In this document: one piece after another, positions 51,626 through 64,000 of the stretch
How the letters are laid out: every line of letters starts with the position of its first letter
How positions within the stretch are numbered: the stretch's first letter is position 1
DNA from: Synechococcus sp. UW140
GTDB lineage: Bacteria > Cyanobacteriota > Cyanobacteriia > PCC-6307 > Cyanobiaceae
Length of the DNA: 64,000 bases
Reading direction: 5' to 3'
Assembly (NCBI GenBank): GCA_945875915.1
Contig: CAMCMT010000007.1
Span: forward strand, 1 to 64,000
Translations under genes and position numbers: made by a program
The notes under the pieces: generated by a model
Seen by the model: only the letters and a program-made list of their open reading frames with translations
Databases searched by the model: none
Told to the model about the DNA's origin: nothing

Positions 51626-53626
51626 ATGGCCCTGCCAACTGCAATTCCGTCGCCTTCCAACCCAACGGTCGAAGGGAGGAGCTGGTCAGGGGCAGCCAGC
51701 GCTGCCCTCTATGGCGTCAACAAATGGGGCGAACCCTATTTCTCAGTGAACGAGTTAGGCCACATAGAAGTCAAGCCAAAGGGCGAACGGGGTCCTACCA
51801 TAGACCTAGTGGAGCTAGTCGAAGGATTGCAAGGGCGCAATCTCTCATTGCCCTTACTCATTCGATTCGACAATATTCTTGAAGACCGCCTAGACCATCT
51901 CCACCAGGCGTTTGCTCAAGCCATAAAGGCCTATGACTATCCGGGCCATTATCAGGGCGTGTTTCCGGTTAAATGCAATCAGCAGCGCCATGTCGTCGAG
52001 CAACTTATCGAAAGTGGGCGCCGCTGGAACTTTGGCCTTGAAGCCGGCAGCAAAGCAGAATTGCTGATTGCCCTTTCCCTACTGAACGACCCAAAAGCCC
52101 TGCTGATCTGCAACGGCTACAAGGACAAACGCTACATAGAAACAGCCATCCTGGCAAGGCGGCTGGGGAGACAACCTGTGGTTGTGATTGAGCAGCCTGA
52201 TGAGGTGGAACGCATCATTTCAGCAAGCAAGGAACTAGGAGCAGCCCCCTTAATTGGCATTCGGGCAAAACTGTCGGCCAGGAGTACCGGCCGTTGGGGA
52301 AGCTCGGTGGGAGACAAGGCAAAGTTTGGACTCGCCGTCCCTGATATTCTCGCCACAGTTGAAGCCCTACGGAACGCCAACCTCTTAACAGAATTAAAGC
52401 TGCTGCACTTCCATGTGGGCAGCCAAATAAACGACATCGCCGTACTCAAAGATGCACTTCAAGAAGCGGGCCAAATCTATGCCGCACTTTGCAAATTAGG
52501 AGCCCCGATGGGCTACCTCGATGTCGGCGGCGGTCTCGGAGTCGACTACGACGGCAGCCGCACAGCAACCGCAGCCTCAAAGAACTACTCACTACAAAAC
52601 TACGCCAATGACGTCGTTGCCACCGTGCGGGAGAGCTGTGAACCCTGGGGCATCACCGTGCCAACGCTCGTTAGTGAGAGTGGACGGGCCATTGCCAGTC
52701 ATTTCAGCGTGCTTGTCTTTGATATTTTGGGAACGGGAACCGTGCCTAGGGGCATTCCAAACCCTACGGACTCAGAACCGTTAACGGTTAGAAATTTACG
52801 CTTTACCCTTGAAAGCCTAATTGAACATGAGAGCAAACCAGAGCAACCAGCAGGCGAACCTAGCAAGGATCAACGCAAACTCGAAAAACTGCAGGAAGCC
52901 TGGAATGACGCCATCAAATTCAAGGAGGATGCCCTAGCTGCGTTCCGCCTGGGCTACCTAAGCCTCACCGATAGGGCTGTGGCCGAACAACTCACTTGGG
53001 CGTGCGCGGATCGCATCGCAAGACAATTGCCCCAAACTGGGGTTCCCGAAGAGTTGAAAGCCCTACGATCAGCCCTAGCCAAGACCTATTACGCCAACCT
53101 TTCCATTTTTCGATCCGCTCCAGACACCTGGGCGATCGATCAACTCTTCCCGGTAATGCCGATCCATCGACTGAATGAACGTCCAAACGAACTCGGCAGC
53201 TTCGCAGATCTTACCTGTGATTCCGACGGTAAGTTGGAACGATTTGTTAATAGTGGTAAAATAAAGACACTGCTAGAATTGCATGAATTCACGCCAGGTC
53301 AACCCTATTGGATAGGTATGTTTCTTGCCGGCGCCTATCAGGAGGTCATGGGAAACCTACACAACTTATTTGGCAGTACAAACGCAGTCAACATAAGAAT
53401 CAATGAAAACGGAGAATACCAGCTTGACCATGTTGTCAAAGGAGACACCAATGCCCAAGTTCTCGAAGCCATGGAACATAATCCCAGTGAACTACTGGAA
53501 CGGCTTCGCGTAGCCAGCGAAACGGCTATTCAGAGCGGACAGCTGAATATTCAAGACGCCAGCAGGCTGATGGATCACCTGGAAAGCAGCCTAAGGCAAA
53601 CAACGTATCTCACCAATAAGCCATGA
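51626..53626 (+). CDS. speA: Biosynthetic arginine decarboxylase
   Basis: SpeA makes agmatine from arginine on the way to polyamines, using PLP. The ATG at 51626, nine bases after a good GAGGA site, gives 666 residues. The PLP lysine is Lys116 (GVFPVKCNQQ); other blocks are NFGLEAGSKAELLIAL, FHVGSQI, YLDVGGGLGVDYDGSR and VSESGRAIASHFSVLVFDI. Codon use is noticeably more A+T-rich than in the genes to its left, the first sign of the compositional shift that continues to the window end. Confidence 0.95.
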   Translation: MALPTAIPSPSNPTVEGRSWSGAASAALYGVNKWGEPYFSVNELGHIEVKPKGERGPTIDLVELVEGLQGRNLSLPLLIRFDNILEDRLDHLHQAFAQAIKAYDYPGHYQGVFPVKCNQQRHVVEQLIESGRRWNFGLEAGSKAELLIALSLLNDPKALLICNGYKDKRYIETAILARRLGRQPVVVIEQPDEVERIISASKELGAAPLIGIRAKLSARSTGRWGSSVGDKAKFGLAVPDILATVEALRNANLLTELKLLHFHVGSQINDIAVLKDALQEAGQIYAALCKLGAPMGYLDVGGGLGVDYDGSRTATAASKNYSLQNYANDVVATVRESCEPWGITVPTLVSESGRAIASHFSVLVFDILGTGTVPRGIPNPTDSEPLTVRNLRFTLESLIEHESKPEQPAGEPSKDQRKLEKLQEAWNDAIKFKEDALAAFRLGYLSLTDRAVAEQLTWACADRIARQLPQTGVPEELKALRSALAKTYYANLSIFRSAPDTWAIDQLFPVMPIHRLNERPNELGSFADLTCDSDGKLERFVNSGKIKTLLELHEFTPGQPYWIGMFLAGAYQEVMGNLHNLFGSTNAVNIRINENGEYQLDHVVKGDTNAQVLEAMEHNPSELLERLRVASETAIQSGQLNIQDASRLMDHLESSLRQTTYLTNKP

Positions 53627-53655: not shown

Positions 53656-54291
53656 TTAATTATGGAGTGGCCTTGGCGCGAAAATCATCGCAACACCCGC
53701 CAACAGTTGCAGTAAGAAGATCTGCTCAAGTCCATGGGCGCCCATACCCATAAAGGTCAAGGTAAATGCGGGGTTGAAAATGCCAACTGAATCAGCAAAG
53801 CCAAGGAACAACAAGGAAGTGAGTCCAGAACCAACCACAAAACCGGACAAGGGCCTAGCTTCCGGACAAATCCGTCCCTCATCACTCCAGGCATGGATCA
53901 ACCACAAAAATACCAAACTCATCAAGATTTCGACAAGTGTTGCCCTAGAGGTGAAGGGGCCAGACGGCGCAGTAAAGGGACGGACGTGAAAGCCAAACCA
54001 GATGCCTACGAGCTGGGCAGATACATACCCCAAAAAGCCAACAAGATTGGACCAAAAAGAAGATGGATTGGCCAAAGTATTCTGGCCAAAGAACATCAAG
54101 CTGACGGAAGGATTAAGGTGGGCCCCGCTAGTTCTGCCAAAGAGATGAATCAGAAATACCAGAGCCAACCCAATCGAAAGAAAGGTAGTAAAATCGGGGA
54201 CATCACGCAAAGCGAATGAGGTAACAACTGCATAGGCGAGAAAAAAGCTGCCGATCAGCTCCAGTCCCATCCGCTCTGGCAGACTGCGCAT
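53656..54291 (-). CDS. Aquaporin-like channel (MIP family), atypical
   Basis: The 211-residue protein has six predicted hydrophobic segments. The first pore loop reads SGAHLNPSVS (NPS at 60-62, a variant of NPA); the second reads FNPAFTL (NPA at 173-175). The Arg that normally follows the second NPA is replaced by Phe, so the selectivity filter must differ from classical water or glycerol channels. It starts 10 bases after the beta-rich protein's stop and is probably co-transcribed with it. It converges on speA. Confidence 0.8.
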   Translation of the reverse strand: MRSLPERMGLELIGSFFLAYAVVTSFALRDVPDFTTFLSIGLALVFLIHLFGRTSGAHLNPSVSLMFFGQNTLANPSSFWSNLVGFLGYVSAQLVGIWFGFHVRPFTAPSGPFTSRATLVEILMSLVFLWLIHAWSDEGRICPEARPLSGFVVGSGLTSLLFLGFADSVGIFNPAFTLTFMGMGAHGLEQIFLLQLLAGVAMIFAPRPLHN

Positions 54292-54301
54292 GGATCAAAT
54301 T

Positions 54302-55870
54302 TCAGACAGGGCTCACACTATAGGCTCCCGTTATTACGTCTGCAAAAAACCGATAAGGACCTGTGTGGATAGCCGTAAAGCTTAAGGCAGGAGGATTCCC
54401 ATGGGAGGTCAACTGGCCAAATCGCTTGAGCGAGCTCACAGTCACATCTCCAGGGTTTGGCTGGGAGCCGATAAAATCGGTGCCATAGCAATCAAGCTCA
54501 TAATCAGCGAACACCATTTGCCAAGGAGTTCGATTGCCAAGATACTTATAGGTATAAGTTTCACCAGCCTTCAACAGCACACAACGCTGAAACCGTCCAC
54601 CACCAATCAGCTCCATCAGGTTTGCAGGGGATTCCGGATCCCATGCCTTCAGGGGTTCGGGGAAATTACCCACGAGTGAAAGCTCATGTAACTCGGTAGT
54701 TGGCGTTAATGTGCCTCCACCCGAAACAACCTCTATCGCGAAGCTATCATCATTCAAGTGATAATGAAAAAGCAGGCGACTATCAACATCAAGTTCAAAA
54801 TAAATATTCCATTCTTGAGGCTTACCATGCCAAGCCACACCCTTAAGAAGTTGGCCCGGCTGCTTCGGATCATAGTCAAGCCAGCAACCAAATCCCATCG
54901 TATCAAGGAAAAGCTCAGAAGCAATACCAAAATTAATACAATGCTTCCCCGCCTTAACATCAAGCTCTAACTGCAAATTCTCTGGTGAAGTAACCGGCAA
55001 AAGGGTTCTACCTGCTACCGTCGGATCGAACTGATTATCAGCATGGACAGTGCCAAGAAGCTGCATTGATGACCTAATATTGAGTAATTCTGGATCAGCG
55101 CCTGCCAAGGCCTTAACCTCAATATGGGGAGATTCAGGTGTGCTATCAAGCACAAAACGAAAAATGCCGTCCTCATTGACTTTAATGGTGCAGCCGGAAT
55201 GCATTGAAGAGCCATGGCTGCTACCGAAACCGGTGCCGCGAACCAAACGCCCGGTGCCATCATTCAAAGCCGAAAAGCCATAATCCTCTTGGCCATCGGC
55301 TGAAATCAAAAACTGATAGACACCATCCGCCCTAAAGTCAATTCCACCGTTAGCCCTAAGCGGTACGTCGAGGAACCATTTGCCTGGAGAAACATTAATA
55401 AAAGAACGCCCGGGCCGCCTGCACAAAAACTTGTCAAACATGGACAAGTCATCCCAGACAAAGCCATTCAATTCATACCCGTTAAATTCAACAACTGGCT
55501 GGACAGTAGCAGCCGGGTCGGAAACGATGCCCAAGGGCACGAGTTGCAACTGCATCGTTTCACTATCAAAACGAAAAAGAATTTCCGTATCCATAAGAAT
55601 CTTGAAATTAATGTTGGCACAGCTTTTGCCGTCCCCATCCTCAACAAGGGTCCAAGTTAACGACGCCCCATCGACTGTCGAACATTTTAAATGACGATGC
55701 GAGTTGTGATTAATAACAAGCCGACACGAAAAGTGGCCAGTATGCTCAGGTCCCTTGGGCCCTTCTAAAAAAACACTGCGTTCCCAGGAAGAAACCCCCA
55801 CACGCTTAAAATCTTGGTCGGAAATGAAAGGATTCCAACGCCAACGTCGTGCCGTTAGGTTGCCAATCAT
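54302..55870 (-). CDS. Beta-rich repeat protein, possibly glucan-binding
   Basis: The ATG at 55870 gives 522 residues (the frame is open 57 codons further, without coding character). There is no signal peptide or membrane span, so it is likely cytosolic. At least three segments share a pattern of short beta strands and aromatic residues ending G-x-Y/F-x-F: GVYQFLISADGQEDYGF, GIFRFVLDSTPESPHIEV and GPYRFFADVITGAYSV. The block SLVGNFPEPLKAWDP recalls CBM48/AMPK-type sugar-binding domains (x-GxF..W). Placement next to a debranching enzyme makes glucan binding a fair guess, not a proof. Confidence 0.55.
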   Translation of the reverse strand: MIGNLTARRWRWNPFISDQDFKRVGVSSWERSVFLEGPKGPEHTGHFSCRLVINHNSHRHLKCSTVDGASLTWTLVEDGDGKSCANINFKILMDTEILFRFDSETMQLQLVPLGIVSDPAATVQPVVEFNGYELNGFVWDDLSMFDKFLCRRPGRSFINVSPGKWFLDVPLRANGGIDFRADGVYQFLISADGQEDYGFSALNDGTGRLVRGTGFGSSHGSSMHSGCTIKVNEDGIFRFVLDSTPESPHIEVKALAGADPELLNIRSSMQLLGTVHADNQFDPTVAGRTLLPVTSPENLQLELDVKAGKHCINFGIASELFLDTMGFGCWLDYDPKQPGQLLKGVAWHGKPQEWNIYFELDVDSRLLFHYHLNDDSFAIEVVSGGGTLTPTTELHELSLVGNFPEPLKAWDPESPANLMELIGGGRFQRCVLLKAGETYTYKYLGNRTPWQMVFADYELDCYGTDFIGSQPNPGDVTVSSLKRFGQLTSHGNPPALSFTAIHTGPYRFFADVITGAYSVSPV

Positions 55871-56292
55871 TGAGATCGACTCAATGACGCTAGAACCAAC
55901 ATGGTTGCTGGTAAGCAAGGGGAGTGACTGAACCACAATTCCGAGAACACTGATCGAGGTATGTTTAGCGCCTTCGTGCTGCCGTTGGCAATGATCAATA
56001 CAGAAATGTAGCGAAAGGCACAAATCCCCAAACAAAGCCAAAACTTATGTTGAAAACCTCACAATAAGAATAATTACAATCAAAGCAATTGAAGAGGGGC
56101 AGTGATCAAAATAGAAAATATTAAAACTCCTTAGCAGGGGTTTCACTGGAAACCGTTGCGGTTTCGCAAAAAATGGAGTAAGTTAGTAGGGACCAACTAT
56201 GATCTCTAAGCTGAATGTAAATGGAGTTTAAAAGGTTAAGAACTGGTTTGTAAAATATTAAAAAAACTTAAACCATCCCAACCATTTCAAAA
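55871..56292. promoter_or_regulatory. Divergent control region with palindrome
   Basis: This A+T-rich region separates the beta-rich protein from the debranching enzyme. It holds a perfect inverted repeat GAAACCG-TTG-CGGTTTC (56149-56165). On the plus strand a weak promoter pair may be TTTAAA (56227-56232) and TAAAAT (56251-56256), 18 bp apart, 36 bases before the ATG. The repeat is a plausible operator for a LacI-type or other dimeric regulator controlling both sides. Confidence 0.45.
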
Positions 56293-58473
56293 ATGACTTC
56301 AACAATCAACAGTTTTGCGATTTCCCCTAAAGGGCGTCCGCTTTCACCTGAAGGTGGTGCAACAAGGACATACACGGGTTCACCGCACCCATTTGGTGCG
56401 ACTGTTGATGACGAAGGAGTAAATTTTGCGATATATAGCGCAAACGCAACAGCTATTCAATTGCTTCTTTTCAATAACCCAAGCGATCTAGAGCCATCGC
56501 AAGTTATCGATCTAAGCCCCATTACAAACAAAAGTTTTTATATTTGGCATGTCTATGTACAAGGATTGAAGCCAGGGACTGGTTATGCGTACCGCGTTGA
56601 CGGTCCCAATGAACCTTGGAATGGCCACCGCTTCAATCCAGCCAAAGTATTGGTAGATCCTTACTCTAAAGGAAATTCGCTTGCCCTATGGGAAAGGGGA
56701 GCAGCCTGTGGCACTGAGGACAATCTCCACAAGAGCATGCGGAGTGTTGTTATTGATACTAGGGGCTATGACTGGGAAGGTGACATGCCGCTAAGGCGGC
56801 CCATGGCTGAATCAATAATTTATGAAATGCATGTGGCCGGTTTTACAAAAAGTCCGTCAAGTGGCGTGCAGCACCCAGGCACCTTCAAGGGTCTGATTGA
56901 AAAAATCCCCTATCTACAAGAAATCGGCATAACCGCAGTCGAGCTTTTGCCAGTATTTAGCTTTGATCACACAGATATCTTGCGTGTTCATGAAGGTAAC
57001 CCCCTAGTAAACTATTGGGGATACAGCACGATGGGCTATTTTGCTCCCCATCAAGGCTATTGCACTGACCCAGAATCCGGCCTACATGTTCAAGAGTTCA
57101 GGGACATGGTCAAGGCCCTACACAAGGCAGGTATAGAAGTAATCCTCGATGTTGTATTTAACCACACCGACGAGGGCAATCACCAAGGACCAATGTTCTC
57201 GTTCAAGGGATTGGATAATAGCACCTATTATTACTTGACTGGTAAGGATGGATCAAAGGAGTTTTACTACGATTATACAGGCTGTGGCAACACCTTTAAT
57301 TGTAATCACCCAATCGGAGAAAAATTAATTCTAGATTGCTTACGATTCTGGGTTCAAGAGATGCACGTGGACGGCTTCCGCTTTGATGAAGGGTCTGTGC
57401 TAACTCGTGGTGAAGATGGGACACCCTTAGAACATCCGCCCGTAATTTGGTCGATTGAACTTGACGATGTGCTTGGATCCAGTAAGGTAATCGCAGAAGC
57501 CTGGGATGCGGCAGGTCTGTACCAAATTGGCTACTTCCCCGGAGCACGCTGGGCAGAATGGAACGGTAAATACCGTGATTCAATTCGGCAATTTGTGAAA
57601 GGTGACCCTGGCGTAATCCAGCAAGTTGCAACAAGACTTACTGGTAGCGCAGACCTATACCAATGGCGCCACCACGAGCCAGTAAATAGCGTTAATTTCA
57701 TAACTGCCCATGATGGCTTTACACTCTACGACCTGTGCGCATACAATGAAAAGCACAACTGGGCAAATGGTGAAGGCAACAATGATGGAGTGAACGACAA
57801 CATTAGCTGGAACTGTGGAGCAGAGGGCGATACCGACAACGAATCGATTGAGGCTCTAAGGAGGAAACAGGTCAAGAACCTGGGAGTTCTTCTAATGTGC
57901 TCCCTAGGAGTGCCCATGATCGTCGGAGGTGATGAACACGCCCGTTCTCAAAAAGGGAACAACAACACGTATTGCCAAGACAATGCCCTTAACTGGTATG
58001 ACTGGGATGCTATTCAAACACCAGAATCAAAAGAGATGATTCGATTTTGGTCAATGCTCAACAAAAAACGCAGCAACTTCATAAACCACTTCAAAGGCAA
58101 ATATTTTACAGATAAAGTAAGCCGATTTGGTGTTCCTGAGATTTCATGGCATGGCACCCAACTCAACCAACCCAATTGGGATGATCCAGGCGCCCGCTGC
58201 CTAGCGATGACCTTCGGGGATACCGCAGAAGACACAGATGGACTCGATAATATCCATGTCATGATGAACATGTATTGGGAACCTCTAAAATTTGATATCC
58301 CTCATTATGAAGGATTAAGCTGGCGTCGGACCATTGATACATCTCTTCAATCACCCAATGACATTACAATTCCAGAAGAAGCGCCAATGATCAACGATTC
58401 AGGATATATCGTTAATGACCGCAGCATCGTGGTGCTAACAACTCGGGCATCGATCCAAGGAGGTTCAGCATGA
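56293..58473 (+). CDS. glgX: Isoamylase-type glucan debranching enzyme (GH13_11, GlgX-like)
   Basis: The 726-residue enzyme cleaves alpha-1,6 branches in glycogen. An N-terminal CBM48 (GSPHPFGATVDDEGVNFAIYSANA) precedes the GH13 barrel: LPVFSFD, GYSTMGYFAPHQGY, VILDVVFNHTDEGN, nucleophile Asp365 in VDGFRFDEGSVL, acid Glu402 in VIAEAWDAAG and Asp474 in ITAHDGFTLYDL. The residue after the nucleophile is Glu where Leu is usual in the family. A C-terminal beta domain closes the protein. It heads the run of genes toward the window end; Slr1857 in the Synechocystis icfG cluster is, as I recall, of the same type. Confidence 0.93.
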   Translation: MTSTINSFAISPKGRPLSPEGGATRTYTGSPHPFGATVDDEGVNFAIYSANATAIQLLLFNNPSDLEPSQVIDLSPITNKSFYIWHVYVQGLKPGTGYAYRVDGPNEPWNGHRFNPAKVLVDPYSKGNSLALWERGAACGTEDNLHKSMRSVVIDTRGYDWEGDMPLRRPMAESIIYEMHVAGFTKSPSSGVQHPGTFKGLIEKIPYLQEIGITAVELLPVFSFDHTDILRVHEGNPLVNYWGYSTMGYFAPHQGYCTDPESGLHVQEFRDMVKALHKAGIEVILDVVFNHTDEGNHQGPMFSFKGLDNSTYYYLTGKDGSKEFYYDYTGCGNTFNCNHPIGEKLILDCLRFWVQEMHVDGFRFDEGSVLTRGEDGTPLEHPPVIWSIELDDVLGSSKVIAEAWDAAGLYQIGYFPGARWAEWNGKYRDSIRQFVKGDPGVIQQVATRLTGSADLYQWRHHEPVNSVNFITAHDGFTLYDLCAYNEKHNWANGEGNNDGVNDNISWNCGAEGDTDNESIEALRRKQVKNLGVLLMCSLGVPMIVGGDEHARSQKGNNNTYCQDNALNWYDWDAIQTPESKEMIRFWSMLNKKRSNFINHFKGKYFTDKVSRFGVPEISWHGTQLNQPNWDDPGARCLAMTFGDTAEDTDGLDNIHVMMNMYWEPLKFDIPHYEGLSWRRTIDTSLQSPNDITIPEEAPMINDSGYIVNDRSIVVLTTRASIQGGSA

Positions 58474-58562
58474 AACTATGACATGATGCAAGCGTCATGC
58501 GAGACGCCGGAAAATAGCGTAATTCAAGATCAAAGCAAAGACACCATCCATTTAACAAAACA

Positions 58563-60716
58563 ATGACTGGCACCCTAGACTTCAGCTTCTCCGACCTAAT
58601 CGCAGGCTACATTCGCAAAGTAGATTTTCCCGAAGTATTCGATTCTCAGGGTTTTATTGAGCTAGAAACCTCAGATGGTCGCACGTTTACAGTTAAGATT
58701 ACTTATGCTTGTTACGCTGAACTAGTTAGAAACCTGGGAGAGGGATTCCAAGTTGCCCCAGGATTAAAAGAGACTCTAAACGTCGGCAGATTTATTCACG
58801 CCTATGGTATCTTCTATCCAGAAGCAGATAGGCTGAAATTTGAAGCTAAGCACATTCTGCTGTTTGGCAGAGATGCAGATAAACTTCGCTTTGAAGAGCA
58901 AGATTGGTGGGTTCGTCAAATTCAACAGCTACTGAATTTCTACTTAGAAAAGCAGTTCAAAGTACAAGAAGGTAAAGCCATTGATTTCCGCAACTTCAGA
59001 ACAGATCTGAGTTCGGAAGGTGACAAGCAAGACGGTGTGCAAAACCTAGACACCGTTTCGCGTCTAATCTATGGCTTCGCCACCGCCTATATGATGACAG
59101 GCGACGAGCGAGCCTTGGAAGCCGCGACCAAAGGCACCGAGTATATGCAAAGGCATTTCCGGCACCGTGATAGCACAGAAGGGATTACCTATTGGTACAG
59201 CCAGATTGACATCCAAGGAGATGGCAGTCTGCGTAAGTACATGGGATCAACTGCCGGCGGCGACGAAGGTGGTAATGCAATCCCTTGCTACGAACAAATT
59301 TATGCGTTGGCAGGCCCAACCCAAACCTATCGTCTGACCGGTACAAAAAATATCCTTGTAGACATTCAAGACACGATTTCGTTCCTGAATCGTTATTACA
59401 AGGATCATGGCCCCTATGGCGGCTACTACTCGCACATCGATCCAGTTACATTTGATCCCAAGGCAGAATCCCTGGGTGTTAATAGGGCCAAGAAAAACTG
59501 GAACTCCGTCGGTGACCACGCACCTGCCTATCTAATCAACCTCTACCTGGCAACTGAAAAGCAAGAGTATTCCGATTTCCTGGAAAACACTTTTGACACT
59601 ATTTGTGAATACTTCCCGGATTACGGCTACAGCCCATTCATGAACGAGAAGTTCTTTGATGATTGGAGCCACGATCTAACGTGGGGTATTCATCAAGCTC
59701 GCTGTGTTGTGGGGCACAACCTAAAGGTTGCTTGGAACCTTACCAGGATGCAAAGCCTCAAACCGAAAGAAAGCTATAAAACCTTTGCCCATCAAATTGC
59801 TGACGCCATTCCAGCCGCTGGTTGTGATAACCAGCGTGGTGGCTGGTACGACATGATGGAGCGGACGCGCAAAGATGGCGAAGAAACCAATCGCCTTGTT
59901 TGGCATGACCGCAAAGCATGGTGGCAGCAAGAACAAGGCATTCTTGCCTACTACATCATGGCCGGTGTCTATAACGATAATGATGATTATTTGCGTTTTG
60001 CCCGGGAAGGTTCAGGTTTCTACAATGGCTGGTTCCTAGATTATGAGCAAGGTGGCATCTACTTCAACGTACTTGCTAACGGACAACCCTACGCACTCGG
60101 AAGCGAGCGCGGCAAAGGGAGTCACTCAATGGCTGGTTACCATTCCTTTGAACTTTGCTTCTTGGCAGCGGTCTATACCAACCTCCTGGTTAACCGCCAT
60201 CCCATGGACTTCTTCTTCAGCCCAGAACCTGGTGCCTGGGAAGACAATATCCTGAGGGTTACGCCTGATCTTCTACCCGCAGGTAGTGTCGAACTTAGTG
60301 AGGTGTGGATTAACGGCAAGAACTACGAAAACTTCAATCGCGAAAAGCTTTACGTAACCCTTCCCGAATCAGACACAACCCTAAAGGTACGTGTTCGCAT
60401 CACCCCTGCAGGGCTAGGATTCGACACAGATTTGCTTTCCTTCGAAGGTGGAATTGCTACCTTCGCCCTGTCTGGCGAACTAATCACTTCAAGGCTGCGA
60501 GATCTGAAGGAAGAAGTTGAAAAACTTCCCAACCTTAAGGGTCTTGTCCTTGACATGACAAATCTGAAGGCCATTAGTGGCACAGGCTGGAACTATCTCC
60601 TCTTCACCAAGCAACGGGCTGGCGCTAGCTTTACAGTCAAGCTGACGAATCTGTCAGATGCTGTTAAGAAGTCATTGGTCGAGGCGGAACTTGATGAGGA
60701 GTTCACACTGGGCTGA
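58563..60716 (+). CDS. AGE-family sugar epimerase/isomerase fused to a STAS domain
   Basis: The 717-residue protein has three parts. Residues 1-130 form a beta-rich module of OB-fold look (GFIELETSDGRTFTVKITY, FIHAYGIFYPEADR). Residues 130-570 are an (alpha/alpha)6 domain of the N-acylglucosamine/cellobiose 2-epimerase type: SVGDHAPAYLINLYLAT, GHNLKVAWNL with His385, and WWQQEQGILAYYI (W453, W454, E457). Residues 634-717 are a STAS domain (FALSGELITSRLRDLKEEVE, VLDMTNLKAISGTGWNYLLF), the fold of SpoIIAA anti-sigma antagonists. The usual phospho-Ser position reads Gly673, flanked by Ser672 and Thr674. The substrate sugar is unknown. Confidence 0.85.
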   Translation: MTGTLDFSFSDLIAGYIRKVDFPEVFDSQGFIELETSDGRTFTVKITYACYAELVRNLGEGFQVAPGLKETLNVGRFIHAYGIFYPEADRLKFEAKHILLFGRDADKLRFEEQDWWVRQIQQLLNFYLEKQFKVQEGKAIDFRNFRTDLSSEGDKQDGVQNLDTVSRLIYGFATAYMMTGDERALEAATKGTEYMQRHFRHRDSTEGITYWYSQIDIQGDGSLRKYMGSTAGGDEGGNAIPCYEQIYALAGPTQTYRLTGTKNILVDIQDTISFLNRYYKDHGPYGGYYSHIDPVTFDPKAESLGVNRAKKNWNSVGDHAPAYLINLYLATEKQEYSDFLENTFDTICEYFPDYGYSPFMNEKFFDDWSHDLTWGIHQARCVVGHNLKVAWNLTRMQSLKPKESYKTFAHQIADAIPAAGCDNQRGGWYDMMERTRKDGEETNRLVWHDRKAWWQQEQGILAYYIMAGVYNDNDDYLRFAREGSGFYNGWFLDYEQGGIYFNVLANGQPYALGSERGKGSHSMAGYHSFELCFLAAVYTNLLVNRHPMDFFFSPEPGAWEDNILRVTPDLLPAGSVELSEVWINGKNYENFNREKLYVTLPESDTTLKVRVRITPAGLGFDTDLLSFEGGIATFALSGELITSRLRDLKEEVEKLPNLKGLVLDMTNLKAISGTGWNYLLFTKQRAGASFTVKLTNLSDAVKKSLVEAELDEEFTLG

Positions 60717-60730
60717 CAAGCCAACAATCA

Positions 60731-60763
60731 AGCTATGATGGCATCACCACGCCATCAATAGCT
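60731..60763 (+). promoter_or_regulatory. Inverted repeat at the oxygenase gene start
   Basis: AGCTATGATGGC (60731-60742) pairs with GCCATCAATAGCT (60751-60763) with one bulge and an 8-base loop. The 3' arm runs into the TTG start codon, so the RNA hairpin would hide the start region. No Shine-Dalgarno sequence is evident. Confidence 0.6.
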
Positions 60764-62259
60764 TGACCGCAACTTCATTCATTCAAAAGGGAGTAGATGC
60801 GGCAACGCAAGGGAACCTGACGGAAGCAGAAAACTGCTTCCGTCAGGCCTTTTTATTGTCAAAGAAAGAACACGCTAGATTCAATATTGGTGCAGCAAAC
60901 TTGATCCGCTTACTGCATCAGCAAAAAAAGAATCAAGAAGTAGTAATAATAGCCGAAGAACTTGGCACGGAGCAAATGATCAAGTTGCCTCAGATCTGTA
61001 TTCTAATGGCGGCAGAGTCGGCACTTAAAACCGGCGAAAACAGAGTAAGTGCAAGCCTATATAAAAACTTATACGCCCAATACCCACAAGAAAAGGGAGT
61101 CGTACTGGGCTTTAGTCAAGCAACAATGCTACTTGGGGAACTAGACAAAGCCGACAGGATACTCCGAAATTACACTCAAACAAACGGAGCAGATACAGAG
61201 ATCGAAACTAATCTGGCTGTGATTGCATTGGAAAAAGGGAATTTAAGAGAAGCGGAAGAACACTACCGCAAGGCCAGCAGCTTAGCGCCCAAAACATTTG
61301 TAGTCCATTATAATTTGGGAAAATACTTGCAAATGCATGGCGACTTGGATGAGGCCATGGATGAATTAAATACCTGCTTAGAGATCGTACCAAGTGCTGT
61401 CGAAGCAATGATCGCTAAAGCAGAAACTCTAAGAAGCAAAGGGCAAGAAGAAGAATCGCAAAAGCTCTATATCAAAGCGATGAATAGAAATGCCTTGAAT
61501 AAGGAACAAGTGATCGCCATTGTTAAACCTATCCTCGCCAATGCCATTGAAAAAGCCGACATAGAAACATGTAGGCAGTATCTGGTTAATATTTCAGATA
61601 AAATCCGGTCTGATTTTCGCTTAAAGACGATCATCTATGACCTACCAGAAGACCTTCAAAATGAATTTGGCGGTGGAGCTGACTTGTATGATCCAAGAAA
61701 ACTAGTATTGACCAAAAATTTCATAAATGATAGGGGGTATTTGGAAAGAATCAAAGAAGAAGTACTATCTCAGAAAAGCCTGATAAAAGATCGACCAGAT
61801 AAACCAACTAGAGGTGGAAAACAAAGCCACGAAATCATGGAAACAAGTACCAATGAATTGAAAAATCTAGGACGAGATCTTGAGAGCGAATTAACTAACT
61901 ACGCAAACAATATGCCAGCTTCAATCAGACCCCCAGCCAATTCCAAATTCAGAATTAGTGGTTGGGCTGTCAGTTTAGAATCAGGCGGACATCAACTACG
62001 CCATAGCCATCCGGAAGCGGTTGCGAGTGGAGTTATCTATTTATCAATACCTGCGGATATGAATTTGAGTGATGATAACAAACAAGGTTCTCTCTATTTT
62101 TCAAGCGGAGCGGGAAAGGCAGAAGGGCAATCAATGCATGTAATGGCGACCACGGGCAAACTAGTTATGTTTCCATCCTACATGCCACATGAAACAATTC
62201 CCTTTAGGTCAACACAAGAAAGGGTTTGCCTTGCTGTCAACCTGATCAAAGTCAAATGA
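60763..62259 (+). CDS. TPR protein with C-terminal 2OG-Fe(II) oxygenase domain
   Basis: The 498-residue frame starts with TTG. Residues 5-270 are TPR-like helical repeats (ATQGNLTEAENCFRQAFLLS, LGKYLQMHGDLDEAMDELNTCLEI). The C-terminal 90 residues fit the 2OG-FeII_Oxy_5 family: HQLRHSHPEAVASGVIYLSIP (His414, His416), LVMFPSYMPHETIPF (His476) and Arg487 in ERVCLAVN. Such enzymes hydroxylate proteins or small molecules using 2-oxoglutarate, a carbon/nitrogen signal in cyanobacteria. The substrate is unknown. An intrinsic-terminator-like hairpin lies within the first 30 codons. The start codon is uncertain. Confidence 0.82.
   Translation: MTATSFIQKGVDAATQGNLTEAENCFRQAFLLSKKEHARFNIGAANLIRLLHQQKKNQEVVIIAEELGTEQMIKLPQICILMAAESALKTGENRVSASLYKNLYAQYPQEKGVVLGFSQATMLLGELDKADRILRNYTQTNGADTEIETNLAVIALEKGNLREAEEHYRKASSLAPKTFVVHYNLGKYLQMHGDLDEAMDELNTCLEIVPSAVEAMIAKAETLRSKGQEEESQKLYIKAMNRNALNKEQVIAIVKPILANAIEKADIETCRQYLVNISDKIRSDFRLKTIIYDLPEDLQNEFGGGADLYDPRKLVLTKNFINDRGYLERIKEEVLSQKSLIKDRPDKPTRGGKQSHEIMETSTNELKNLGRDLESELTNYANNMPASIRPPANSKFRISGWAVSLESGGHQLRHSHPEAVASGVIYLSIPADMNLSDDNKQGSLYFSSGAGKAEGQSMHVMATTGKLVMFPSYMPHETIPFRSTQERVCLAVNLIKVK
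60816..60856 (+). terminator. Terminator-like hairpin inside the oxygenase gene
   Basis: CCTGACGGAAGCAG (60816-60829) and CTGCTTCCGTCAGG (60834-60847) match perfectly over 14 bp with an AAAA loop, followed by CC and TTTTTATT. This is a textbook rho-independent terminator, but it lies within codons 18-31 of the TPR-oxygenase frame (GNLTEAENCFRQAFLL). The coding there is convincing TPR sequence, so both functions seem to overlap. Confidence 0.8.
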
Positions 62260-62521
62260 AGATTGTGCTCATCATGTAAAGGGGATCAACAAGCAAGTTT
62301 GGGCAAAAGTACAAACTAGATGGCATTAATTAATAGGAGGTCGCTGGCGGCGCTAAAAGACCAAGGGAGTGGTCAAAGCCAGGTAGGTACCTAGCTCAGG
62401 GAAGGGGTCACGGAATCATCATCGGATCAAGAAAAAAGGACATCCAGGCCAAAATCAGGTATGATGAGCGGATGGTGCGCGGGCCTGCTGCGCATTAAAA
62501 GTCACTCTTAATTTCCTATCC
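62260..62521 (+). promoter_or_regulatory. Spacer with possible promoter before the DJ-1 gene
   Basis: A -10-like TATGAT lies at 62460-62465, 57 bases before the ATG, followed by a 5-bp hairpin TGCGC (62476-62480) / GCGCA (62490-62494). No clear -35 was seen. The 262-base gap suggests the DJ-1 gene and the next gene can be expressed apart from the upstream genes. Confidence 0.35.
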
Positions 62522-63379
62522 ATGGCCAAAAAGATCCTGACTGTTATTTCGGAATGGGGCTATTGGGGCGAAGAATTTGTCGGACCTTACGATGTATTAG
62601 TCAAGGCTGGCTATGAGCTAGAATTCATGACTGCTTACGGTCGCAAGCCGCCTGCCTTACCTCCGAGTATGGAGGAAGGTTACATGGACCCACCACTGAA
62701 CAAATCAGTAACCGATGCCCACTTCGCTAAGAGAACAACAGAAGTCAATAGTTCAGATCTACTTGCAAATCCAATCAACCTGGCAGATCAGTTGCCACTG
62801 ATGCCTTATTTTAATGGGCCAAGTTTTGGCCTTGAATTGGCTAAATACAATGATCTAAAAGAAGAGTTCTGGAAAAAATTTGTTGATCCCTACGAAGCCC
62901 TTCTGCTTCCCGGTGGCAGCGGCCCGATGGCAGATATGGTTAACAACGAACGCCTTCACACCCTGATTCTTGGCTTCTTAAACAGGGGCAAGCTGATCGC
63001 TGCTGAATGCTACTGCGTCACCTGCTTGGCATTCGCCCGTGATTGGACTGATCGCAAGAGCATCATTGATGGCAAACATGTTACGGGTCACGCACGTGAA
63101 TATGACTATAAAGAAAATACAGGATTCGCCCAAATGTATGATTTTAATGGCGATCCGATGAACACAACAGCCAATTTTGGCCCTCCCTTCTATCCGCTAG
63201 AGTATATTTTACGTGACGCCGTGGGACCTAATGGTCAATACCATGGCGGTGTTGGACACACCATTTCAACAATCCTTGACTATCCGTTCTTAACGGGAAG
63301 GTCAACCCAAGATTCAACCCTTGTGGGTGAGCTGATCATCAAGGTTCTCGAAGAGGGCCTCACTCGGTACGGCTGGTAA
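62522..63379 (+). CDS. DJ-1/PfpI superfamily protein
   Basis: The 285-residue protein has the class I amidotransferase-like fold of Hsp31/DJ-1: ILTVISEWGYWGEEFVGPYDVLVKAGYELEFMT with an acid at residues 17-18, ALLLPGGSGPMADM, and the nucleophile elbow IAAECYCVTCLAF with Cys163. Hsp31-type proteins usually have Cys-His at the elbow; here it is Cys-Tyr, followed by two more Cys. Relatives act as glyoxalase III, chaperones or hydratases. Its place next to sugar enzymes fits an aldehyde or carbonyl-handling role, by inference. Confidence 0.82.
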   Translation: MAKKILTVISEWGYWGEEFVGPYDVLVKAGYELEFMTAYGRKPPALPPSMEEGYMDPPLNKSVTDAHFAKRTTEVNSSDLLANPINLADQLPLMPYFNGPSFGLELAKYNDLKEEFWKKFVDPYEALLLPGGSGPMADMVNNERLHTLILGFLNRGKLIAAECYCVTCLAFARDWTDRKSIIDGKHVTGHAREYDYKENTGFAQMYDFNGDPMNTTANFGPPFYPLEYILRDAVGPNGQYHGGVGHTISTILDYPFLTGRSTQDSTLVGELIIKVLEEGLTRYGW

Positions 63380-63425
63380 TACCAAAGATGATCGCCAAAA
63401 CAAATTTTAAAATTGTGAGGATTCC

Positions 63426-64000
63426 ATGAGAGGCCACGAAGCAATCATTCGCCAATTTTTGGCAAATGGTATTGATCACATGTTTGGCAATCCAGGTACA
63501 GTTGAACAGGGATTTCTAGACGCTTTGGCAGATGTGCCAGAAATGAAATATATTCTTACTCTTCAAGAATCTATTGCTGTTCTATGTGCTGATGGCTATG
63601 CCAGAAGCACACTTAAGCCCGCCCTTGTGCAGATTCATTCATCGCCAGGTCTTGGCAATGCAATCGGTAACCTGTATCAGGCCAAAAAGGGGAATGCTCC
63701 TCTTGTAGTGATTGGCGGAGATGCTGGGATTAAATATCAAGCAATGGATGCCCAAATGGCAGCTGACCTGGTCGCAATGGCCGAGCCAGTGACCAAATGG
63801 TCTGCCATGGTTCAACATCCATCCAGCCTGCTTAGGATGGTTAGAAGGGCCATTAAGGTTGCAAGTACTCCCCCATGTGGGCCAGTTTACTTGTGCTTGC
63901 CTGAAGACATGCTTGATGCCGAAATAACAGAGGAAATTTATCCTGCTCATATTCCAAGCTATGACATTCACCCAACCCAAGACAATCTATCTGAATGTGC
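63426..64000 (+). CDS. ThDP-dependent enzyme, N-terminal part (cut by window edge)
   Basis: The frame starts at an ATG after a good GAGGA site and is open to the window end (191 codons). It is the PYR domain of a thiamine-diphosphate enzyme: FLANGIDHMFGNPGTVEQGF, the cofactor Glu48 in TLQESIAVLCADGYAR and PALVQIHSSPGLGNAIGNLYQA. The sequence is closer to benzoylformate decarboxylase/acetolactate synthase-like enzymes than to transketolases. The substrate cannot be judged from this part. The start is 46 bases after the DJ-1 stop, so co-transcription is likely. Confidence 0.85.
   Translation, partial: MRGHEAIIRQFLANGIDHMFGNPGTVEQGFLDALADVPEMKYILTLQESIAVLCADGYARSTLKPALVQIHSSPGLGNAIGNLYQAKKGNAPLVVIGGDAGIKYQAMDAQMAADLVAMAEPVTKWSAMVQHPSSLLRMVRRAIKVASTPPCGPVYLCLPEDMLDAEITEEIYPAHIPSYDIHPTQDNLSEC

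Follow-up and report, generated by a model that had tools for sequence, protein, structure and literature searches.

The window analysed here takes up bases 1 to 64,000 of contig C7, which is 81,906 bases long and belongs to the 2.62 Mb genome of Synechococcus sp. UW140. At its right end lies a gene cluster whose core, a GlgX-type debranching enzyme and an AGE-family protein fused to a STAS domain, is homologous to part of the icfG set of Synechocystis. The genes of the cluster are inherited together in many genomes. The core has lost the parts of the partner switch, an RsbW-type kinase, a PP2C phosphatase and the protein STAS1, and with them the phosphoaccepting serine of the remaining STAS domain. 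The region is probably a low-GC (guanine plus cytosine) accessory island with two linked modules, the first a switch-less, fused-type derivative of the icfG cluster and the second a co-inherited set of carbonyl and oxidative enzymes. The genes in question are, in window coordinates:

53656-54291, minus strand: MIP (aquaporin-like) channel, a loosely linked member (Pfam MIP, E 3.6e-8)
~54302-55870, minus strand: beta-repeat protein, start codon uncertain (open frame to 56041), no Pfam family over cut-off
56293-58473, plus strand: GlgX, an isoamylase-type debranching enzyme with which the core run begins (TIGR02100, 705.5 bits against a cut-off of 640.9)
58563-60716, plus strand: AGE-STAS fusion in a single open frame (PF07221 and PF01740 over cut-off)
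58563-60446, plus strand: AGE-fold part of the fusion (sugar 2-epimerase/isomerase-like), with an N-terminal beta domain of ~100 residues
60447-60713, plus strand: C-terminal STAS domain of the fusion (Pfam STAS over cut-off), STAS2-like, with Gly at the phosphoacceptor position
60763-62259, plus strand: TPR repeats joined to a 2OG-Fe(II) (2-oxoglutarate) oxygenase (PF13759, E 5.9e-20)
62522-63379, plus strand: DJ-1/ThiJ-like protein, first gene of the satellite operon (PF17124, PF01965)
63426 to contig base 65150, plus strand, cut by the window end: thiamine diphosphate (ThDP) enzyme, benzoylformate decarboxylase-like, followed by SnoaL, SnoaL and VOC genes

All seven genes listed in a preliminary description were recovered at their places with the domains assigned to them (Pfam and TIGR matches). 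Its view that two icfG parts are fused here was confirmed by the single AGE-STAS frame and by fused relatives elsewhere, and the gene order indeed differs from that of icfG. The kinship with icfG that it proposed holds for the core but not for the switch, of which RsbW, PP2C, STAS1 and the serine are missing.

Two designs of the cluster

AGE relatives were found in 21 of the 299 genomes of the order, and at 74 loci in the genome collection; 89 loci, including extended regions, were compared by gene maps. Neighbours were searched for with profiles built from the same loci; Pfam backed these searches in the UW140 genome, in 41 genomes belonging to the order and in four from Nostocales. Partner counts per locus are restricted to loci with at least 6 kb on both sides (38 fused and 32 separate, called full-flank below). 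Many of the relatives are metagenome bins, and the phylum of single contigs (e.g. Bacteroidota, Actinomycetota) may therefore be wrong.

The loci fall into two designs. The separate design has the order AGE, STAS1, GlgX, STAS2, RsbW, PP2C, often preceded by genes for a second DJ-1 type, CMD and SnoaL, whereas in the fused design GlgX is followed by AGE-STAS, as seen in all 38 full-flank fused loci. The TPR-2OG gene follows AGE-STAS in picocyanobacterial fused loci only. In Nostocales this place is taken by a fusion of a response regulator with a thioredoxin-reductase-like flavoprotein, together with a histidine kinase that binds cyclic nucleotides (L038 12562-15638 and ~25 other cyanobacterial fused loci). 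This arrangement suggests that redox control has replaced the partner switch there. In L044 (4443-7103) and in seven further Nostocales loci, the gene for a large protein of ~886 residues that we take for a GH63-like glucosidase is situated between GlgX and the SnoaL/VOC/MIP genes, which again hints at glucan processing.

Fused relatives of ~709-754 residues are encoded in picocyanobacteria, Nostocales and other cyanobacteria and on two Bacteroidota contigs, so that the fusion is not a local frameshift artefact. In the GlgX tree a branch with 100/100 support divides the proteins of the fused loci from those of the separate ones. The AGE tree unites the cyanobacterial fused proteins in a single clade (93/97), and the two Bacteroidota fusions stand apart with weak placement. 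The genome contains a second GlgX on contig C27, 40% identical to the cluster copy, which suggests that the latter is accessory.

Unfused icfG-type clusters are present in 9 of the 299 genomes of the order. The system is therefore not absent from picocyanobacteria. A literature search on the AGE-STAS fusion or the present gene set found no report.

Absence of switch partners and loss of the phosphoacceptor

None of the 38 full-flank fused loci contained RsbW, PP2C or a second STAS gene in profile searches (0/38 each). Among the separate loci these were found in 28/32, 24/32 and 31/32, respectively. The UW140 contig, searched to its end, contained no RsbW kinase or PP2C, and a Pfam search of the four Nostocales genomes found neither inside the cluster and both elsewhere. 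The genome of UW140 has one SpoIIE-type PP2C (contig C10, between argH and ftsY), one RsbW-type ATPase (C29) and one lone STAS protein (C3), all outside the cluster. A second TPR-2OG oxygenase-like gene is located on C10 as well (L004 15473), close to the PP2C gene. When PP2C and RsbW were counted genome-wide in the 41 genomes of the order, exactly one PP2C was found in every carrier of the fused gene and in 19 of 20 relatives without AGE; carriers of separate-type clusters had two to five. RsbW showed the same trend less sharply.

The phosphoacceptor column was taken as the first Ser of DSSG, equivalent to SpoIIAA Ser58 and in agreement with the published Ser59 of Ssr1600 (PMC12329169). In separate loci it is Ser in 40/40 STAS1 and 32/32 STAS2 proteins (72/72). 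Not one of the 18 picocyanobacterial fusions has Ser: 15 have Asp, two Asn and one, that of the window, Gly. The 29 other cyanobacterial fusions have Thr (13), Ser (7), Ala (7), Asp (1) or Asn (1), and both Bacteroidota fusions have Ala. The fused STAS domains form one clade (100/100), and the change at the acceptor thus represents relaxation in a single lineage, not a series of independent tests. This clade groups with STAS2 (Slr1859-type) and not with STAS1, although support for the joining fork is modest (80/84) and picocyanobacterial STAS2 lies in the opposite part of the tree. The absorbed domain does not group with the STAS that adjoins AGE in separate loci. In Synechocystis, replacement of Ser59 and Ser60 of Ssr1600 by Asp abolished binding to the kinase Slr1861 (PMC12329169). 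By analogy, Asp at the acceptor may hold the fused domain in the released state.

The AGE-fold enzyme

A single-sequence search of the PDB with AGE-STAS gave no true match; a profile search found AGE-family enzymes, to which identity is ~15-18%. The structure model (predicted local distance difference test, pLDDT, 85) contains the (alpha/alpha)6-barrel of the AGE fold and superposes on D-mannose isomerase 5x32 with Z 36.1 and on glucose and cellobiose 2-epimerases with Z 32-34. When the full-length protein is used for a structure search, the AGE domain takes up the matches. R167, H319, H385 and H527 are invariant in 35 sequences, H527 being assigned by motif only. Two acidic positions of the family, Glu in the relatives, read A322 and K388. 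The conserved Arg and His residues combined with these two replacements mark the AGE part, as judged from sequence and model, as a divergent AGE subfamily.

The satellite operon and neighbouring genes

The operon of DJ-1, ThDP enzyme, two SnoaL genes and VOC recurs beside both designs in several phyla, often with a GMC oxidoreductase, and its picocyanobacterial versions often include the beta-repeat protein. Genes of this operon lie next to the core in contigs of cyanobacteria, Thermodesulfobacteriota, Pseudomonadota, Verrucomicrobiota, Nitrospirota, Actinomycetota and Bacteroidota. Of the 299 genomes of the order, 10 have the satellite DJ-1 gene, and each of these is one of the 21 that carry AGE (hypergeometric 2.6e-13, a value that ignores relatedness). 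The grouping of the genes exceeds chance.

C163 and E18 of the DJ-1/ThiJ-like protein are present in 26/26 relatives, and H414, H416, H476 and R487 of the TPR-2OG oxygenase in 8/8. The nearest solved relatives of the ThDP enzyme are benzoylformate decarboxylases (2.6e-56); the part of it inside the window stays under the NCBIfam equivalog cut-offs. Among 390 genomes of the class, five had the beta-repeat protein, and each of them carries both AGE and DJ-1. The protein consists of four segments of ~130 residues, the first and third clearly alike by profile comparison and the last weakly like starch-binding domains (X25/CBM20). An X25 match was obtained for 6 of 7 scanned relatives, always below cut-off (best 26.9 against 27 bits). 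Glucan binding by this protein, as guessed in the preliminary description, is possible. Its AlphaFold2 model (pLDDT 43) was too poor for a structure search and was left unused. The MIP channel has a 39% identical copy after VOC in L110 and is unlike the MIP channels that follow VOC in Nostoc loci.

The low-GC island

GC content is ~45-48% across most of the region, against 60-72% for most of the surrounding DNA, and the stretch therefore looks like an acquired accessory island. It spans from window base ~52,500-53,000 to contig base ~78,000, between speA and a mazG-like gene. GlgX and AGE likewise lie below the GC content of their flanks in the majority of other high-GC hosts. No AGE match was found in two genomes of the same genus (G285 and G294). 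The gene cluster extends beyond base 64,000 with the following genes, in contig coordinates:

65,192 (start): SnoaL, first
65,651 (start): SnoaL, second
66,052 (start): VOC
66543-66884 (L002 14544-14885): Nif11 leader-type protein (TIGR03798 over cut-off)
67,282 (start): SnoaL, third
68,596, minus strand: Gfo/Idh
~71,060-72,850: GMC oxidoreductase
76,156: P450

The Nif11 leader-type protein sits amid SnoaL genes without an obvious core peptide, and a Nif11-SnoaL fusion is present in the Nostoc locus L040. A perfect 14-base-pair hairpin followed by a T-rich run was seen at window bases 60816-60847, within the early TPR-2OG reading frame; in L029 and L030 terminator-like hairpins lie immediately upstream of this gene, not inside the frame.

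Discussion

In the reading that we consider probable, GlgX, AGE-STAS and TPR-2OG constitute the first module, derived from the icfG core in its fused form. GlgX would debranch stored glycogen, and the AGE-fold enzyme may then epimerise or isomerise the freed glucose or maltooligosaccharide. The STAS tail would be the leftover of a STAS2 (Slr1859-type) protein that is no longer switched by phosphorylation and probably serves as a fixed docking, contact or oligomerisation domain. The second module, with DJ-1, the ThDP enzyme, two SnoaL proteins, VOC, the GMC oxidoreductase and the beta-repeat protein, most likely carries a sugar-derived carbonyl product further, in steps of which the order is presumed. 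A bolder version is offered with considerable reserve: STAS2, the anti-anti-sigma-type protein of a six-gene carbon switch that occurs in several phyla, was taken over by the enzyme encoded beside it and fixed in one form, in most picocyanobacteria that of a phosphomimetic (Asp), which would keep the enzyme in a single signalling state for good. Were this true, the icfG switch in its original form would have the AGE and GlgX enzymes among its targets and would not be confined to sigma factors.

Several observations weigh against the two-module reading. Ser or Thr is retained at the acceptor in 20 of the 29 other cyanobacterial fusions, and its loss is therefore clean in picocyanobacteria only. 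The replacement of both Glu residues by A322 and K388 makes epimerase activity uncertain. Every genome keeps RsbW and PP2C elsewhere, and control in trans is therefore possible. Finally, the modules can sit on separate contigs. Genome G054 has the satellite as a unit of its own on another contig, in the order GMC, beta-repeat, DJ-1, ThDP, SnoaL1, SnoaL2, VOC. The flanks of this run (L138, G054:C21 4885-17469) hold a response-regulator/reductase gene and a gene for PP2C.

The separation in G054 would be expected if the modules were unrelated accessory operons that share an island and travel together, and within reach of the full-flank fused loci DJ-1 is indeed found in only 11/38 and ThDP in only 13/38. 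However, satellite genes recur beside the core in contigs of several phyla and DJ-1 is accompanied by AGE in 10/10 genomes of the order, which makes this explanation unlikely.

The genes downstream of the window raise the possibility of a biosynthetic role: as a cluster, the island would make a small molecule or a modified peptide, to which GlgX and AGE supply sugar. The Nif11 leader-type protein, P450, GMC, SnoaL and Gfo/Idh, in addition to the ThDP and 2OG enzymes, would fit such a pathway. We regard it as rather unlikely: no peptide-modifying synthetase, non-ribosomal peptide synthetase/polyketide synthase or transporter was noticed alongside, the Nif11 protein is without a clear core peptide, and Nif11, Gfo/Idh and P450 are not conserved beside the core.

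The preliminary description had proposed a possible glucan pathway controlled by a partner switch and had advised looking past base 64,000 for an RsbW-type kinase and a PP2C phosphatase; none was found up to the contig end. Of the two observations that it named as refuting, scattering of the genes elsewhere was not found, since gene-order comparison and co-occurrence counts show them together in many genomes, whereas the lack of kinase and phosphatase partners was. As no fused locus examined has a local RsbW or PP2C and the acceptor serine is lost, Gly standing in its place here, such a pathway is unlikely. It could still operate if the fused STAS were phosphorylated in trans by the sole RsbW and reset by the sole PP2C, at a Thr or a nearby residue. 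The genome does encode one of each and a lone STAS protein, the residue after the acceptor position is Thr in 15 of the 18 picocyanobacterial fusions, that of the window among them, and one Synechocystis kinase acts on several STAS proteins encoded at other loci (PMC12329169). Yet genomes that lack the cluster have these partners to the same extent, all 18 fusions read Asp, Asn or Gly at the acceptor and 38/38 loci are without a local partner, so we give control in trans little chance. A pathway through anhydrofructose or 3-keto-sugars was rejected, as no glucan lyase was noticed (no aimed search was made) and Gfo/Idh is not conserved beside the core.

The targets of the icfG switch are known in part, and little work has been done on the AGE and GlgX genes beside it. 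The fusion of STAS2 to AGE points to direct contact between a signalling protein and a sugar enzyme. As a switch-less derivative, the fused cluster offers a natural version in which to learn what the enzymes do without regulation. The full set of AGE, STAS, GlgX, STAS, RsbW and PP2C was found in contigs of Cyanobacteriota, Thermodesulfobacteriota, Pseudomonadota, Acidobacteriota, Deinococcota and Actinomycetota, often accompanied by the DJ-1/ThDP/SnoaL/VOC satellite. The icfG cluster would thus seem not to be special to cyanobacteria.

Comparison with known systems

The comparison with Synechocystis PCC 6803 was made with the published annotation of the icfG operon (slr1852-slr1862) rather than with its sequence: Slr1853 CMD, Slr1855 AGE, Slr1856 STAS, Slr1857 GlgX, Slr1859 STAS, Slr1860 IcfG and Slr1861 kinase (PMC8670252, PMC12329169, PMC3564720). 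The separate design agrees with these parts. The present cluster shares with the operon an AGE-family protein, a GlgX2-type debranching enzyme and a STAS2-type domain, and several of its relatives have DJ-1, CMD and SnoaL neighbours as well. It differs in that STAS is fused to AGE, GlgX lies upstream instead of downstream, the RsbW kinase, PP2C, STAS1 and the acceptor serine have been lost, and the TPR-2OG and DJ-1/ThDP/SnoaL/VOC genes have been added. Thus AGE-GlgX adjacency, one mark of an icfG-type partner-switch cluster, is present, and the kinase and phosphatase within the cluster and the two serine-bearing STAS proteins are not. With the AGE superfamily (mannose isomerase, glucose/cellobiose 2-epimerases and GlcNAc 2-epimerase) the AGE part has the predicted fold and the conserved Arg and His positions in common; it departs from it in the extra N-terminal beta domain, the C-terminal STAS domain and the Ala and Lys at two Glu positions. 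The ThDP enzyme, unlike benzoylformate decarboxylase and its kin, is found in the fixed company of DJ-1, SnoaL and VOC genes.

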